Positions 1 through 21,185 of a stretch of 24,237 nucleotides of DNA are shown one piece after another. The stretch spans positions 1 through 24,237 of the IMG/VR virus record IMGVR_UViG_3300042465_005792; one strand, given 5' to 3'. How positions within the stretch are numbered: the first letter of the stretch is position 1; every line of letters starts with the position of its first letter. A program made the position numbers and the translations under genes. The notes beneath the pieces are model-generated. The model saw nothing but the letters and a program-made list of their open reading frames with translations, was not told where the DNA came from and did no database searches. Origin of the DNA: a virus.

Positions 1-65
1 GGTGAATTCGGCGGTGAGTGCGGGCTACTTTGAAAGTGTTGCTAAGGGGGTTATAAGTCTTTCAC

Positions 66-101
66 GCCTCTAGCCGGCGTATTGATTGCCTGAGTAGCTA
101 T
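66..101 (+). repeat. Palindromic repeat element, copy 1
   Basis: A 36-bp element starting GCCTCTAGCCGGCGTA and ending in AGCTAT. It recurs at 11465-11500 in the same orientation (about 28 of 36 positions identical) and inverted at 3752-3787 (about 29 of 36). The conserved ends and GCCGGC core resemble small palindromic intergenic repeats that I recall being common in Comamonadaceae; that family link is memory, not a search. An open frame from base 2 (codon GTG) stops at 71-73 inside this element, so the 3' end of an upstream gene may lie here, but 23 codons are too few to call. Confidence 0.7.
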
Positions 102-227
102 GTTTTTTGAGCGTGTTCGTTTTTAAAATTTAAAAAAAATGGCTGGGCGGGGGGTTTTACAGTACAGAGCTTTTCTACATAGTCCAACCCATCGCGGGTG
201 GATTGGCTGCCCGCAAGCGGGGTGGTC
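102..227 (+). promoter_or_regulatory. AT-rich leader ahead of the packaging genes
   Basis: This stretch between the repeat and the first late gene has a markedly AT-rich run at about 118-139 followed by a G-run at 148-154. It is the natural place for a late promoter or, since the terminase is lambda-like, a cos region. I see no hexamer pair with good spacing (TTGAGC at about 107 has only weak -10 partners) and no cohesive-end signature I can defend. The call rests on composition and position only. Confidence 0.2.
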
Positions 228-4222: not shown

Positions 4223-4235
4223 GGTGTTGGCAACC

Positions 4236-4982
4236 ATGGCCACGTTTGAAAAATTGGAAATTGGCGACGCTACGCTTTACCTTGGTGATTGTGTGGAAGT
4301 TCTGCCTCTGCTTGAAAAAGTAGACTGCGTAATAACAGACCCTCCATATAGCGACAGCACCCACAAAAACGCAAAAAGTAATGCAGGGGGTGCAGGTGGC
4401 GCAAAAGCCATTGACTTCAAAGCCATTGACTTCAAAGCCATTGAATCACTGCTTGACTCGTGTTCTGTTCTTTGCGATGGGTGGGTTATTGCAAATATGG
4501 ATTGGCGCCACATTGCCCAGCTTGAATTTCAAAAACATCATTTTTACGATCTGATTCGATTCGGCGTTTGGGTCAAAACAAACCCAATGCCCCAAATTAG
4601 CGCCGACCGCCCGGCCAATGGGTGGGACGGCATTGCCTACATCTATCCAAAAGACAAAAAGAAGGCGTGGTTTGGGGGGGGGTGCCATGGCAACTGGATT
4701 GGCCCCGTGATTACCAATGGAGACCACCCAACCGGTAAGCCTGTTGAAATGATTTCCAGTTGGGTCACGCGATTTACAAACTCTGGGCAGACAATTCTGG
4801 ATCCTTACATGGGTAGCGGGACAACAGGGGTTGCAGCCATGCAGCACGGTCGCAAGTTCATTGGAATAGAGCGAGATCCAAAGTATTTCAAGGTTGCAAT
4901 TGCCCGTATTGAGCAAGCGGAATCACAAGGCCGATTGTTTGCGCCTGAACGTCAAAAACAAATGCAAAACCTGCTTGTCTAA
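4236..4982 (+). CDS. Orphan DNA methyltransferase (N6-adenine or N4-cytosine class)
   Basis: The enzyme transfers a methyl group from S-adenosylmethionine to an amino group in DNA. Motif IV, DPPY, is at residues 35-38 of a 248-aa product. Motif I, DPYMGSGTTG, comes late, at about 189-198, followed by FIGIERDPKYF. This catalytic-before-cofactor order is that of the beta group of the N6_N4_Mtase family (PF01555). A start at ATG 4236 is preferred over GTG 4224 because AGGG lies about nine bases upstream. No restriction endonuclease is adjacent, so the likely role is protection of phage DNA against host restriction or regulation by methylation. The gene is visibly richer in A and T than its neighbours (codons such as AAA, ATT, TTT are frequent), which suggests separate acquisition. 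Residues about 57-70 contain a small duplication (AIDFKAIDFKAIE). Confidence 0.88.
   Translation: MATFEKLEIGDATLYLGDCVEVLPLLEKVDCVITDPPYSDSTHKNAKSNAGGAGGAKAIDFKAIDFKAIESLLDSCSVLCDGWVIANMDWRHIAQLEFQKHHFYDLIRFGVWVKTNPMPQISADRPANGWDGIAYIYPKDKKKAWFGGGCHGNWIGPVITNGDHPTGKPVEMISSWVTRFTNSGQTILDPYMGSGTTGVAAMQHGRKFIGIERDPKYFKVAIARIEQAESQGRLFAPERQKQMQNLLV
4404..4444 (+). repeat. 15-bp tandem repeat within the methyltransferase gene
   Basis: The unit AAAGCCATTGACTTC occurs twice in full (4404-4418 and 4419-4433) and then for 11 more bases. It is in frame and adds the repeated peptide AIDFK. It lies just after the DPPY motif region, where family members vary in length. Confidence 0.85.
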
Positions 4983-6975: not shown

Positions 6976-9060
6976 ATGCCACAAACCACCACCTCGCAAA
7001 CCCCAGCCGCAGCCTGGTACAGCATTCGCCAGAAAACGCCTGTTGCAGCCGCTGCAGCCCAAGGCGCGCAGGCCGAGGCTGAAATTTTCATCTACGGCGA
7101 CATTGGCGAGAGCTGGTATGGCGACACCATCGCCGCCGCGCAGTTCGTCAAAGACATTGGCGCCTTGAGCGTGAGCGCCATCACCATCCGCATCAATAGC
7201 TTTGGCGGCTCTGTGTCAGACGGCACCGCCATCTACAACGCCATCAAGCGCCACAGCGCCACCGTTACCACCGTAGTTGACGGGGTTGCTATGAGTATTG
7301 CCAGCCTGATCGCCATGGCCGGTGACACCGTAGAGATGGCTGAAAACGCGGTTTTGATGGTTCACGCCCCCTGGACCTACATGTCCGGCAACAGCACCGG
7401 CCTGCGTGAAGCCGCCAACATGCTTGACCAATTTGCAAGCGCCATGGCCACCAGCTATGCCGCCAAAACCGGCAAGCCCGTTGCTGACATGCTGGCCCTG
7501 CTCACCGATGGCGCCGACCACTACTACACCGCCGCCGAGGCCAAAGAGATTGGCTTCATCGACAACATCACCACCGGCCTGCCCATTGCGGCATCTGCCT
7601 CCATGCGCAGCCAGGCCGCCACCCGTTTCACCCGCCCCGTGGCAGAAGCCACCCAACCCCAGAAAGCGCAAACCATGCACCCAACCCAAAACGCCCCGGC
7701 GGCAGGTTCAAACCAAGCCGCCACCCCAGACGCAGCCGCATTGCAAGCCGCAGTGCAAGCCGCCCTGGCCGCTGACGGCGCCCGCCGCGAGGCCATTCAC
7801 ACCAGCTTTGCCAAGTTTGCCGACCGCGACGGCGTGGCCACCCTGCGTGCAGCCTGCCAAAACGACACCAACTGCACCGACGCGCAAGCCGGCCAAAAGC
7901 TACTTGCCTTGCTGGGCAGCACCAGCGCCCCGGTGGCTGGCCACACCATCATCAACACCGTGCACGACGAGTCCGAAAAGCACCGTGAAGCCATGGTCAA
8001 CGCCGTGCTGGCCCGCGCCTCCATTGCAGTGTCCAAAGAAGGCCCTGTGCGCGTGGATGCCTCCAACCCCTACCGGGGCCGCAAGCTCCTGAATTTGGCT
8101 GAAATGTGCCTGGCCCGCGCCGGCATCAAGACCGATGGCATGGACCAGCGCGCCATCGTGGCCAGCGCCTTCACCCAAGGCGGCAGCGATTTCCCGATTT
8201 TGCTGGAAAACGTGATGCACAAAACCCTGCTGGGCGCCTATGCCTTGCAGGCCGACACCTGGACGCTGTTTTGCGCCCGTGGCTCCGTGAGCGACTTCCG
8301 CGCCCACAACCGCTACCGCGTGGGCTCACTGAGCAACCTGGATAGCAAGACCGAGCTGGGCGAGTACCGCAACAAGAGCATTCCTGATGGCGAAAAAGCC
8401 AGCATCGCAGCCACCACCAAAGGCAACATCATCAACATCAGCCGCGAAGCCGTCATCAATGACGACATGGGCACACTCACCGGCCTGGCCTCCAGCCTGG
8501 GCCGCGCAGCCAAGCGCACGGTTGAAGCCGATGTGTATGCCGTGCTGGCCCTGAACTCCGGTTTTGGCCCGACTTTGGCTGACGGCAAAGCCCTGTTCCA
8601 TGCGGACCACAACAATGTGGGCACAGGCGCCCCCACCGTAGCCGCCTTTGAGGCAGCCCGCGTGATCTTGAGCGCCCAAAAAGACGTGAGCGGTAACGAC
8701 TTCTTGGCCTTGTCGCCCGATGTGTGGTTGGGTCCGGACAGCATCAGCGGCCAGGCCCGTGTGGTCAACAACAGCACCTACGACCCAGATGCTGCCAACA
8801 AACTCCAGCGCACCAACATCGCCGCCAACATGGTGGGCACCATTGTGGGCACCCCCCGCCTGTCTGGCACGCCCTGGTTCATCTTTGCCGCGCCATCGCA
8901 AGCCCCTGTGCTTGAGGTTGCCTTTTTGGACGGCATCGACACCCCGTACCTGGAGCTGGAAAACGGCTTCAGCGTAGACGGCGCCCGCTGGAAGGTCCGC
9001 ATGGACTACGGCATTGCCGGCCTCGACTATCGCGGCGCAGTGCGCAGCACAGGCGCCTAA
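6976..9060 (+). CDS. Prohead protease / major capsid protein fusion
   Basis: This 694-aa polyprotein combines the maturation protease and shell subunit. Residues about 35-195 are a ClpP-like (S14) serine protease: a strand region AEIFIYGDIG, then RINSFGGSVSDGTAI, the nucleophile Ser107 in GVAMSIAS, His130 in VLMVHAPW, and probably Asp181 in ADHYYTAAEA, aligning with ClpP's DRFLSAPEA. A low-complexity Ala/Gln-rich linker with an internal Met (ATG 7675) follows. Residues about 330-694 are a major capsid domain of the type seen in Mu gpT-like proteins (GEKASIAATTKGNIINISRE, then ALFHADHNN). Fusions of protease and capsid protein are a known family; in lambda the two are separate genes with an internal scaffold start. 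The protease presumably cuts itself out and trims the shell. No strong ribosome site is seen before ATG 6976. Confidence 0.92.
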   Translation: MPQTTTSQTPAAAWYSIRQKTPVAAAAAQGAQAEAEIFIYGDIGESWYGDTIAAAQFVKDIGALSVSAITIRINSFGGSVSDGTAIYNAIKRHSATVTTVVDGVAMSIASLIAMAGDTVEMAENAVLMVHAPWTYMSGNSTGLREAANMLDQFASAMATSYAAKTGKPVADMLALLTDGADHYYTAAEAKEIGFIDNITTGLPIAASASMRSQAATRFTRPVAEATQPQKAQTMHPTQNAPAAGSNQAATPDAAALQAAVQAALAADGARREAIHTSFAKFADRDGVATLRAACQNDTNCTDAQAGQKLLALLGSTSAPVAGHTIINTVHDESEKHREAMVNAVLARASIAVSKEGPVRVDASNPYRGRKLLNLAEMCLARAGIKTDGMDQRAIVASAFTQGGSDFPILLENVMHKTLLGAYALQADTWTLFCARGSVSDFRAHNRYRVGSLSNLDSKTELGEYRNKSIPDGEKASIAATTKGNIINISREAVINDDMGTLTGLASSLGRAAKRTVEADVYAVLALNSGFGPTLADGKALFHADHNNVGTGAPTVAAFEAARVILSAQKDVSGNDFLALSPDVWLGPDSISGQARVVNNSTYDPDAANKLQRTNIAANMVGTIVGTPRLSGTPWFIFAAPSQAPVLEVAFLDGIDTPYLELENGFSVDGARWKVRMDYGIAGLDYRGAVRSTGA

Positions 9061-9069
9061 AGCGCCACC

Positions 9070-9095
9070 ACCGGGCAGCCCAAACCCTGCCCGGT
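9070..9095 (+). other. RNA hairpin after the capsid gene
   Basis: ACCGGGCAG (9070-9078) pairs perfectly with CTGCCCGGT (9087-9095) around an 8-nt loop, ten bases after the capsid stop codon. No U-run follows, so a classical Rho-independent terminator is unlikely. A partial terminator or a 3' stabiliser raising capsid mRNA level fits the position. Confidence 0.6.
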
Positions 9096-9130
9096 AAAGC
9101 CACCCCAAAAACTCCCCAAGGACCATCACC

Positions 9131-9457
9131 ATGACCACCAAATACGTAATGTCCGGCGACGTTATCGACTTCCCCGCAGGCTCTGCGGTTTCATCCGGCC
9201 AGATTCTTTTGATCGGCAGCCGAATCGGCGTGGCGCTCACAGCCATTGCGGCCGGCGCCGTGGGCGCTGTGCGCGTGCAAGGCGTGTTCACCATTGCCAA
9301 ACTCAGCACCGATGTGGTTGCCCAAGGTGACTTGCTGTACTGGGACGCAGGCAACACCCGCTTGACCACTACCGCCAGCACCCATAAGCTGGCCGGCTAC
9401 GCCTTCAAGGCAGCGGGCTCAGGCGTGACCACGGTTGAAATCAGCATCAACGCCTAA
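9131..9457 (+). CDS. DUF2190 family capsid-associated protein
   Basis: The protein has 108 residues. The pattern MSGDVIDFPAGSAVSSGQILLIGSRIGVA, then a VRVQGVFTIAK strand, GDLLYWDAGNTRLT and a Thr/Ala-rich end with LAGYAF is that of DUF2190 proteins, which follow the capsid gene in many phages. The fold is all-beta and they are thought to decorate or stabilise the head, as gpD does in lambda. AAGGA at 9117-9121 lies at a suitable distance from ATG 9131, so this gene has one of the better ribosome sites in the window, consistent with a protein needed in many copies. It has no signal peptide and no membrane segment. Confidence 0.85.
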   Translation: MTTKYVMSGDVIDFPAGSAVSSGQILLIGSRIGVALTAIAAGAVGAVRVQGVFTIAKLSTDVVAQGDLLYWDAGNTRLTTTASTHKLAGYAFKAAGSGVTTVEISINA

Positions 9458-9475
9458 GCCAAATCAGGCCGCCCC

Positions 9476-9814
9476 ATGAGCTTTGCCACCCTGCAATCCC
9501 GCGTTAACGCCACAGCCGTCAAGCGGCTGGGTGAATCCGTGCTGCTGGGTGGTGAGGAGGTGTCCGGCATTTTTGATAATGGCTTCACGCTGGGCAACGT
9601 GGGCGCCTTTGGCATGGCCAGCACCGAGCCCAAGCTCGTCATGCTCAGCGCTCACATACCACCCCGCGTGATAGAGGACTGGAACCGCTGGTTTTCCGAG
9701 CCATTTGATGCGGTCGAGCAGCACGCAGTCGTCAACGGCGTCACTTACAAGATTGTTGCCATCGAGCCCGCTGGCACCGGCTTGAGCGTGTTGCGCCTGG
9801 AGTCCGTGGCATGA
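9476..9814 (+). CDS. Head-tail joining protein, lambda FII-like
   Basis: The product has 112 residues (lambda FII has 117). It starts with a helix (LQSRVNATAVKRLG), then ESVLLGGEEVSGIFDNGF, which resembles the FII pattern of an exposed strand with GVFDDP. It ends in strands with NGVTYKIVAIEPAGTGLSVLRL, the typical closing beta hairpin of this family. The protein would bind the bottom of the closed head and form the docking surface for the tail. Its stop overlaps the next start (ATGA), and its neighbour is the tail terminator, as expected apart from the missing Z gene. The family call rests on length, order and these short similarities. Confidence 0.7.
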   Translation: MSFATLQSRVNATAVKRLGESVLLGGEEVSGIFDNGFTLGNVGAFGMASTEPKLVMLSAHIPPRVIEDWNRWFSEPFDAVEQHAVVNGVTYKIVAIEPAGTGLSVLRLESVA

Positions 9815-18773: not shown

Positions 18774-20588
18774 ATGCCAACTACCAACCTCGGGCGCGTC
18801 AAGCCAATTTACAAAGGCGTTTACAGCGCTGCCACGGCCTATGTGCCGCTGGACTTTGTGACCCACGCCGGCCAGGCTTACTTTTGTATTCTTGCGGCCA
18901 CCGCACAAACCCCCGGCTCCACCGCCTACTGGCAGCCCGTGGTCGATGTGGCTGCATGGGCCAGCCTCACCGCCTCGCCAGCCAAAATTCCGCTGGCCAA
19001 GGCAGACGGCACCCTTGATGCCACCTGGCTGGCTGCCATCAGTGGCATCCAGACCAACCACATTGGCACGCCCGGCACAGCAGGCTTTGGCGTGGGCATT
19101 TGCCCTTCTGTGCCTGCTGGCTACACACCCATGGCTGGGTGCACCGACAAGCTCTCAGTCAACTACGGCAACTACCAATTTTCTGACGGCAGCGTCATGG
19201 TGTGGGTGCCCGCCTACTGGCTGCGCATTGGGCACGCCAGCAACCCCACTTTTGCCGCGCACGGCGTCAACAGCCAGCACATCCTGCCTATCAGTGCATT
19301 CCCGGACGACGCCACCGCCAACGCGGATGGCTTTTACCGCCACCGCGCATTTATCAATGGTGGAGCCAACAAACTTGGCTTTTTTCGGGACAAATACGAC
19401 TGCTCGCTCAACGGCGCCATTGCCTCCAGCATTGCCAACGCCATGCCCATGGTCAGTGGGCCCAATCTTGTGGGCACGCCACAAGTCGGCTTTACCGGCG
19501 CCACCGCCAACAGCCAAACCCCGACCAACACCTACGGCGGCTCACTGCAAGCCGCCAAATCGCGCGGCGCAGCGTTTTTCCCGGAAAGCATTTTTATCGC
19601 TGACGCGCTGGCCCGCATCAGCGAGGCGCACGCCCAAGCCAGCGCAAGCACCACCTATTGCGCCTGGTATGACTCCACCGGCGTGCGCAACTACCCCAAA
19701 GGCAATGACAACAACGCCCTCAAGAGCGAGGCCGATGTGTTGCAAAACGGGGCAGGCGCCGTTACCTTTACCAGTGCTGGCACCACCACGTACCCCAACT
19801 TTGCACGCACAGGCTCTGGCTCCAACCTCGCCAAAACCACCCACAACGGCCAAGCGTGCGGCGTGGCCGATGTGGCGGGCAACATTTACAAAATCAACCC
19901 CGGGTTGACGTGCATTGCCACCAGCAAAGCCATTACCGCCGCCACCCAAGCCAACCCTGTGGCGCTTACCGTCACGGCGCACGGGCGCACCACGGGTGAC
20001 CCCATGCAAATCGACGCCGTGGTCGGTATGACGGAGCTGAATGGCGACATCTATATTTGCACCGTGCTGGATGTCAACACGCTAACGCTCAATGGCGTTA
20101 ATGGCACCGCGTTTACTGCCTACACCTCAGGCGGCACGGTCGTCAACGGCACTTTTTACACGCTCAAAGAGTCAGTGGACATTGCCGCTGTCACGTCAGG
20201 CGCAAGCACATCTACCGACCACTGGGGCGCCACGGGTGTGGCTGCGCAATTTGATGCCATCGCCCTTAACTTTGCCACCACTTACCCCGGTAACGGCTAC
20301 GCGCAGCGCTACGGCAATGCCGGCAACGCCGTGTTTGACATGTCTACAGCAGCAGGGCGAAAGCTGTCCATGATGGGCATGCCCGCCGCAGCCGGCATGA
20401 GTGCAGCAGGCAGCACAGCCATGGGTGCGGATTATTTTTATCAGTACATGCGCGATCAGCTCTGTGTGGGGTCTCGTGGCAGTTGGGCCCTCGGCAGCGT
20501 TGCCGGGTCGCGCTTTCGCAATCTCTACAACGCCCGGACGGACGCCAGCTTCATCGTTGGCTTTGCCTGCGCCTCGTATTTGCCTTGA
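18774..20588 (+). CDS. Tail fibre / receptor-binding protein with C-type-lectin-like variable domain
   Basis: The protein has 604 residues with AAGGA upstream of ATG 18774. Residues about 14-62 (YSAATAYVPLDFVTHAGQAYFC to STAYWQPV) form a CBM5/12-like module similar in pattern to that of the minor tail gene. From about residue 125 a sulfatase-modifying/C-type-lectin (FGE-like) fold is suggested by DGSVMVWVPAYWLRI, YPKGNDNNALKSEAD and GVADVAGNIYKINPG. Residues about 386-456 (ITAATQANPVALTVTAHGR to YTSGGTV) are an E1-FCCH-like repeat common in phage fibres, inserted into that fold. The C-terminus (YQYMRDQLCVGSRGSWALGS to RTDASFIVGF) matches the variable end of phage lectin-fold proteins diversified by retroelements. 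It probably contacts the host receptor. Confidence 0.82.
   Translation: MPTTNLGRVKPIYKGVYSAATAYVPLDFVTHAGQAYFCILAATAQTPGSTAYWQPVVDVAAWASLTASPAKIPLAKADGTLDATWLAAISGIQTNHIGTPGTAGFGVGICPSVPAGYTPMAGCTDKLSVNYGNYQFSDGSVMVWVPAYWLRIGHASNPTFAAHGVNSQHILPISAFPDDATANADGFYRHRAFINGGANKLGFFRDKYDCSLNGAIASSIANAMPMVSGPNLVGTPQVGFTGATANSQTPTNTYGGSLQAAKSRGAAFFPESIFIADALARISEAHAQASASTTYCAWYDSTGVRNYPKGNDNNALKSEADVLQNGAGAVTFTSAGTTTYPNFARTGSGSNLAKTTHNGQACGVADVAGNIYKINPGLTCIATSKAITAATQANPVALTVTAHGRTTGDPMQIDAVVGMTELNGDIYICTVLDVNTLTLNGVNGTAFTAYTSGGTVVNGTFYTLKESVDIAAVTSGASTSTDHWGATGVAAQFDAIALNFATTYPGNGYAQRYGNAGNAVFDMSTAAGRKLSMMGMPAAAGMSAAGSTAMGADYFYQYMRDQLCVGSRGSWALGSVAGSRFRNLYNARTDASFIVGFACASYLP
20466..20588 (+). other. 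Candidate hypervariable region (DGR variable-repeat-like)
   Basis: The last ~40 codons encode GSRGSWALGSVAGSRFRNLY followed by NARTDASFIVGFACASYLP. The framework (G.W..GS.AG...RN...RT.....VGF) is that of retroelement-diversified lectins. The variable positions are mostly NNC or NNT codons: GCC CTC after Trp571, CTC TAC AAC before Ala, and GAC GCC AGC TTC ATC after Thr. Every one can arise from AAC by changing only adenines. No template repeat or reverse transcriptase is in this window. Confidence 0.6.
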
Positions 20589-20621
20589 GGCCCTGAGCGA
20601 TAGCGATAAGGGCACCCCACC

Positions 20622-20720
20622 ATGACACACAAAACATCCATACACGCTGAGGCTGGCATGCACCGCAAGCTGGTGCTGTTTGGTGTTGGTGGAGCCCGCG
20701 CCCTACCCTTATTTTTTTGA
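20622..20720 (+). CDS. Possible 32-residue ORF after the fibre gene
   Basis: A short frame (MTHKTSIHAEAGMHRKLVLF and 12 more residues) lies in the 144-base gap after the fibre gene, with AAGGG upstream of ATG 20622. It ends in a T-rich tract at TGA 20718. The gap also holds GCCCT/AGGGC (20590-20594 and 20608-20612) around a 14-nt loop containing GCGATAGCGATA. I recognise no function. It may be non-coding spacer or a remnant of a longer gene. Confidence 0.2.
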   Translation: MTHKTSIHAEAGMHRKLVLFGVGGARALPLFF

Positions 20721-20732
20721 AAGAAAAGCACC

Positions 20733-21185
20733 ATGACCTCTATCTACGCTTACCAAAAGCATTCCACACCGTTTTCCATCATCGCCATGGTCCTGCCCGA
20801 CAACCAAGGTGTTGATGACGCCCTGCGCTGCACCGAGCTTTGCACTATTGGCGAGACTACTTATGTGGCCGTGCCCGAAGAGCTGACGCTGCCCGCTCAG
20901 CCTGCGGAGATTGACCCTCAAATCGCCACACTGGACGCAGCGCTGCTCGCCCAAATAAAAGCAGCCAGTCCGCATGTGCAACTGATCTATGAGCGCACTG
21001 AGCAAAAAATCAGGGCCGTGTACAGCCCCAGTGACGAGGCCAAGTTTGCCCGCATTGGTGTTGGCGCCGCCCTGGGTGCGTACACCTTTGCAGCCGGCGA
21101 GCAAGACGAGCTGCTGGCCTTCGGCGAGCACTGCGAGTTTGCCCGCGCATGGGGCCGCGCAGAACGCGCCAAGCTGGGGCTGTAA
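20733..21185 (+). CDS. Hypothetical protein after the tail fibre
   Basis: The 150-aa product starts MTSIYAYQKHSTPFSIIAMV and is soluble, with no signal peptide. Residues about 9-50 look like alternating strands (PFSIIAMVLPD, then TTYVAVPEELTLP). A Pro/Ala-rich linker follows, then a helical C-terminal part (DAALLAQIKAASPHVQLIY, FGEHCEFARAWGRAERAKL). I do not recognise the family. It lies between the receptor-binding fibre and the lysis genes, where fibre chaperones or small tail proteins are often encoded. The next gene starts in its stop codon (TAATG). A purine-rich AAAGAAAAG precedes the start. Confidence 0.7.
   Translation: MTSIYAYQKHSTPFSIIAMVLPDNQGVDDALRCTELCTIGETTYVAVPEELTLPAQPAEIDPQIATLDAALLAQIKAASPHVQLIYERTEQKIRAVYSPSDEAKFARIGVGAALGAYTFAAGEQDELLAFGEHCEFARAWGRAERAKLGL

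Follow-up and report, generated by a model that had tools for sequence, protein, structure and literature searches.

The locus described here raises the question of how a phage fibre came to end in what looks like the variable region (VR) of a diversity-generating retroelement (DGR) with no reverse transcriptase (RT) beside it, and of whether the machinery was lost, lies elsewhere in the genome or is supplied in trans. The window, i.e. the whole stretch of DNA analysed, covers the complete IMG/VR record IMGVR_UViG_3300042465_005792 (24,237 bases) and reads as the part of a tailed-phage genome devoted to head, tail and lysis, with terminase, portal, protease/capsid, tape measure and fibre. At 24 kb, this record falls short of the ~40 kb reached by contigs of its relatives, and it may be an incomplete genome. 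Between terminase and portal, an ORF at 4224-4982 resembles a DNA methyltransferase (DPPY motif). Scans with the fibre yielded 22 viral and 3 MAG loci first, and then 80 loci with an alignment; it has 80+ relatives and is 76% identical to its homologue in locus L031. The features of the window that are needed below are the following.

18774..20588, + strand: fibre or receptor-binding protein of 604 aa, a C-type-lectin-like DGR variable protein with an inserted FCCH-like domain (from the ORF, relatives and structural model)
20460..20571, + strand: VR, the putative last written copy of the lost template (from an adenine-site test against the relatives' template repeats, TRs)
20590..20613, + strand: putative DGR target-recognition hairpin GCCCT-GA-GC-[GATA]-GC-GATA-AGGGC with the GRNA loop GATA (from conservation, folding and the GRNA rule)
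20622..20682, + strand: 5' stub of avd (MTHKTSIHAEAGMHRKLVLF...), truncated, ~20 codons (from alignment with L012 avd and tblastn)
20683..20707, no strand: deletion scar, 25 nt of uncertain origin (from gapped alignment with L012)
20708..20732, + strand: probable 3' remnant of RT (..LIFLKEKH..) (from alignment with the L012 RT tail and tblastn)
20733..21185, + strand: 150-aa ORF (ORF150), located 3' of RT in intact relatives and marking the far side of the deletion (from homologue spacing)

The structure of fibre residues 90-604 was predicted with AlphaFold using 68 relatives (mean pLDDT 93.5); an earlier model from 18 sequences had a pLDDT of 55 and was discarded. In the model, the VR lies in a C-type-lectin-like fold at the C-terminus of the fibre. 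The best match among solved structures is TaqVP (PDB 5vf4; E 2e-14), the bacterial variable protein of Thermus aquaticus, which is likewise a DGR target. The two proteins give a weak profile match (E 1.5e-4), and their sequences are about 14% identical when the folds are aligned. The FCCH-like domain is inserted at residues ~381-477 (window 19914-20205) and can be compared to those of ubiquitin E1 enzymes and some tail-tube proteins. The fibre matches to ubiquitin E1 FCCH and tail-tube entries (Pfam, PHROGs and PDB profiles) are due to this inserted domain and not to the VR.

The original prediction had pointed to a C-terminal framework interspersed with codons derivable from AAC by adenine changes, and both are present where it placed them, with the VR beginning at about 20460 instead of 20466. 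It had also noted that most of the codons between are NNC/NNT, but their enrichment proved weak (79% in the VR vs 70% elsewhere in the fibre); C/T-ending codon bias is no evidence on its own and was dropped as an argument for a DGR. The templates for the VR test were the TRs of seven relatives, and sites were counted only if they had the same base in all seven. As compared with these templates, the window VR is changed at 11 of the 20 invariant adenines and at 1 of the 43 invariant non-adenine sites (p=2.8e-6). The 231 bases directly upstream of the VR, used as a control, showed no adenine bias (changed at 0/17 A vs 3/53 non-A sites). A codon comparison with the seven TRs identified GAC590, AGC592, TTC593, ATC594, GCC572, CTC573, TAC585 and AAC586 as the derived positions, as well as AGT570, GTT576, TTT581 and probably GCC587. 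The codons initially proposed as AAC-derived were therefore mostly right, the exceptions being GCC591 and CTC584, which belong to the framework (the TRs have Ala/Ser, as GCC, GCG or TCC, and Leu, respectively). Judged from these sequence comparisons, the window VR is one that was written by a DGR of the type found in the relatives.

In the intact relatives, the gene order is fibre (with its VR), GRNA-loop hairpin, avd, TR, RT and ORF150, and the order from fibre to ORF150 with the cassette in place was observed in 33 contigs, as judged by avd, RT and spacing. The intact avd genes encode ~140 aa and match PF22296 (bAvd) and NF033474 (Avd); the TR is located ~430-545 bp 3' of the fibre stop; and the RTs have 317-383 aa, with the motifs IGN(L)xSQ and YMDD/YVDD in those read. 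The (I)GNxxSQ motif is typical of DGR RTs. A search of 399 host genomes for the RT gave seven matches, which were 35-41% identical. Comparison of TR and VR on the same contig revealed 15-23 differences at template adenines and 1-3 others (ten loci with a non-degenerate TR; Fisher 1e-8 to 1e-16), and a wider scan added similar pairs, with 10-23 adenine mismatches vs mostly 0-4 non-adenine mismatches overall. Moreover, L084/L085 and L088/L089 are identical over 600 bp upstream, yet 14 of 117 VR bases differ between them, which argues that the DGR system is active in nature. The 33 relatives with avd and RT beside the same fibre, together with TR/VR differences confined to adenines, thus bear out the proposal that the window fibre either is a DGR target or descends from one; the variation among relatives, which had been suggested as a check, is confined to template-adenine sites and is not of the ordinary kind.

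The hairpin behind the fibre stop codon is conserved in 12 family members. Its folding energy is -6.6 kcal/mol, 3 of 200 shuffled sequences being as good, and its consensus pairing is better than that of slid and shuffled controls, with one pair only having changes on both sides. The stem is imperfect and interrupted by mismatches, and formal covariation is slight. A rule for GRNA-loop hairpins at DGR targets was described by Guo et al. 2011 (PMC3240598), and the predicted hairpin of the window fits this rule for DGR target recognition.

It is important to mention what the window lacks. No match to a DGR-type RT (RVT_1) was found in the 24 kb record, and an adenine-tolerant scan of both strands for a second copy of the VR, i.e. 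a TR, gave none beyond chance, as the original prediction had stated for both. Its further statement that no Avd-like gene is present has to be corrected: the truncated avd start at 20622-20682, directly behind the fibre, has 86% nucleotide identity with L012 avd, and tblastn gave an avd match with 72% identity over 22 codons (E=3e-5). Since RT and TR were looked for and not found, and avd amounts to ~20 codons only, the window as it stands is not a complete DGR. The gapped alignment of the window with L012 covers +44..109 and then continues from +1680 onward; what is missing relative to L012 is about 1,570 bp, comprising the rest of avd, the TR and nearly all of RT. The putative RT remnant matched RT residues 325-351 by tblastn (E 1e-4), mostly within the overlap with the next ORF; this end of the scar is weaker than the avd end because the tail of RT and the next ORF overlap in the relatives. 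A blastn search of the VR/scar region against phages gave no match.

The interval between fibre and ORF150 was readable in 61 contigs, of which 33 are intact and 28 are without a complete cassette (these counts include some near-copy contigs). The ORF150 homologue is located 1,625-1,790 bp from the fibre in the intact contigs and 16-933 bp from it in those without a complete cassette. At least nine scars with different breakpoints were distinguished.

Window: avd to codon 22, RT from ~325
L031: avd gone except for the start codon, RT from 300 (last ~55 codons kept)
L071: avd to 43, RT 281-314
L063: avd to 84
L078: avd 21-44, RT from 308
L087: avd nearly whole, RT from 151
L101: avd to 50
L076: avd to 87
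L070: RT tail only

The fibres of the window, L031 and L002 form one supported clade (97/92). L031 has a part of RT that the window is without, and the window has a part of avd that L031 is without, so neither scar can derive from the other and the two deletions are independent. Because the breakpoints differ, the aligned scars demonstrate that loss of the cassette has been repeated and independent in this family. The VRs of L031, L002, L010, L014 and L045 have the same adenine bias as that of the window (in L045, 12/20 A vs 1/43 non-A sites are changed). In L011 and L019, in which the hairpin is also lost, the non-adenine sites of the VR are eroded (10/43 and 14/43 changed); this erosion may partly be plain divergence, the upstream sites also being changed more (9/70 vs 3/70).

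Other arrangements were observed at this place. In L014, L015 and L032, RT is gone, avd is whole and half a TR is left. Their template copy (L014:12059-12190, the same in the other two) is TR-like and AAC-rich over the first ~57 bases and VR-like with a stop codon after that, with 5 A in the 51 bases of its second half; it resembles the product of a TR x VR recombination by which the RT was removed. In L045 (5167-6133), an A-site-clean VR is followed by a degraded hairpin and an unrelated ORF where avd would start, representing a further kind of cassette loss. In L099 (7525-8200), whose fibre shares 98.4% identity with that of L101, a locus with a scar, a Cys-rich ORF of ~200 codons stands where the cassette would be; by eye, this ORF is similar to HNH-type homing endonucleases.

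The reading that we consider quite probable from these comparisons is that the window encodes a formerly DGR-diversified receptor-binding fibre, whose retroelement part was deleted in place and which is now frozen. The original prediction had left three fates of the machinery side by side (elsewhere, in trans or lost), and the last of these is favoured by the deletion scar together with the absence of RT from long cassette-less relatives. No RT was found in ten such relatives on contigs of 38-118 kb (L099, L062, L064, L069, L070, L076, L093, L097, L098 and L103), nor in the cassette-less L019 and L020 (55 and 68 kb); cassette-bearing contigs of ~40 kb (L084, L089 and L091) contain exactly one RT each. 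The absence of RT from the long cassette-less contigs makes relocation of the cassette unlikely in the family.

A different possibility, to which we give a small share of belief, is that the cassette has gone from its home and the VR is still rewritten, either by a DGR elsewhere in the genome or in trans by a relative, co-infecting or resident, with the same TR and RT. The window has kept the hairpin, and its VR, with 1/43 changed, is no more eroded at non-adenine sites than the VRs of relatives that carry the cassette. Donors exist, the cassette being common among family members, and the RT or TR may sit in a part of the genome outside the 24 kb record; against this stand the ten cassette-less relatives without any RT, and an exact-pattern search of viral contigs for a TR of the window VR gave no match. 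Additionally, L017 differs from a 99.4% identical cassette-less group (L007, L009 and L010) at four VR positions, all of them template adenines. Since 10 of the 41 bases that can be compared are A sites, such a pattern would arise by chance with a probability of about 0.002, which suggests recent activity in, or next to, the cassette-less L010 lineage. However, the L017 contig ends inside its own VR and may itself carry the cassette, and the VRs of L007, L009 and L010 are identical to each other. A DGR-like RT is also present in the MAG of L031, and it was rejected as a trans donor, as it adjoins formylglycine-enzyme-like genes and is without a TR for the fibre. This RT (8389-9486, minus strand, within L039:5547-11849) has a small neighbour gene and is flanked by caspase-like proteins with C-terminal formylglycine-enzyme-like domains.

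That the deletion is an artefact of assembly or binning, and that the phage has a full cassette, seems to us very improbable. VR and TR are nearly repeats of each other, and the VR is where some contigs (L013 and L017) do break, but the junction in the window is between avd and the RT tail and not at the VR/TR repeat; differing scars occur in many unrelated assemblies, the MAG of L031 included, and a chimera would not be expected to keep the downstream gene order. Finally, an ancestral cassette-less state, with the cassette inserted in the relatives and a fibre that never was a DGR target, is scarcely credible: loci without the cassette are dispersed across the fibre tree, a pattern that by itself cannot tell gain from loss, but the avd start in the right place, the hairpin and the VR differences at template adenines contradict it.

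The DGR of Bordetella phage BPP-1 has the gene order mtd-avd-TR-brt. The intact relatives resemble it in the order target-avd-TR-RT, in adenine-specific TR/VR differences and in a lectin-fold tail protein as target, as well as in a hairpin that directly follows the VR and has a GRNA loop of 4 nt (PMC3240598). The window fibre works, or worked, in the manner of a BPP-1-type target. The window differs from BPP-1 in having no TR or RT and an avd stub only, in the mismatches of the hairpin stem and in its fibre, which is not Mtd and has the inserted FCCH-like domain. Phage structural proteins are among the DGR targets in the survey of global microbiomes by Roux et al. 2021 (PMC8144416), in which activity was read from VR variation, as it is here. 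Remnant DGR target genes without RT and TR have been described in Treponema denticola isolates (PMC4891356). Those are bacterial isolates, whereas the present case concerns a phage family, with losses at the home site, readable scars and many independent events. Orphan DGR targets are therefore already known; in open-licence papers we found nothing on phage DGR loss besides the Treponema denticola paper, and no description of a phage family with repeated, scarred loss at the home site.

The history that we propose starts from an ancestor in which, by analogy with the biochemistry of BPP-1, an Avd-assisted RT would have copied the TR with errors at adenines. Homing of this cDNA into the VR would have taken place at the hairpin that follows the fibre gene; that the lectin-fold tip was randomised in this ancestor is shown by comparison with the intact relatives. 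TR and RT were then removed, as the scar shows, by a deletion of ~1.57 kb that began at avd codon ~21 and stopped shortly before RT ends. The fibre would have been fixed in its last written version and would still serve as a receptor-binding protein of the ordinary kind. Loss of this type has occurred repeatedly and independently in the family, as the different breakpoints show. It is tempting, though we doubt it, to regard the repeated deletion as a strategy and not mere decay: a DGR would find a good binder and the loss of TR and RT would then lock it, or 'cheaters' would retain the VR and its hairpin, a landing site at which relatives that carry the cassette and share the cell would rewrite them in trans.

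Because the RT is the entry point of DGR surveys, target genes that have lost it are missed. The family described here represents a natural experiment, in which one fibre type occurs with intact and half-deleted cassettes, fresh scars and old losses. With it one can ask at what point receptor hypermutation ceases to be worthwhile, how quickly a VR erodes once writing has ended, and whether orphan VRs can still be written in trans.
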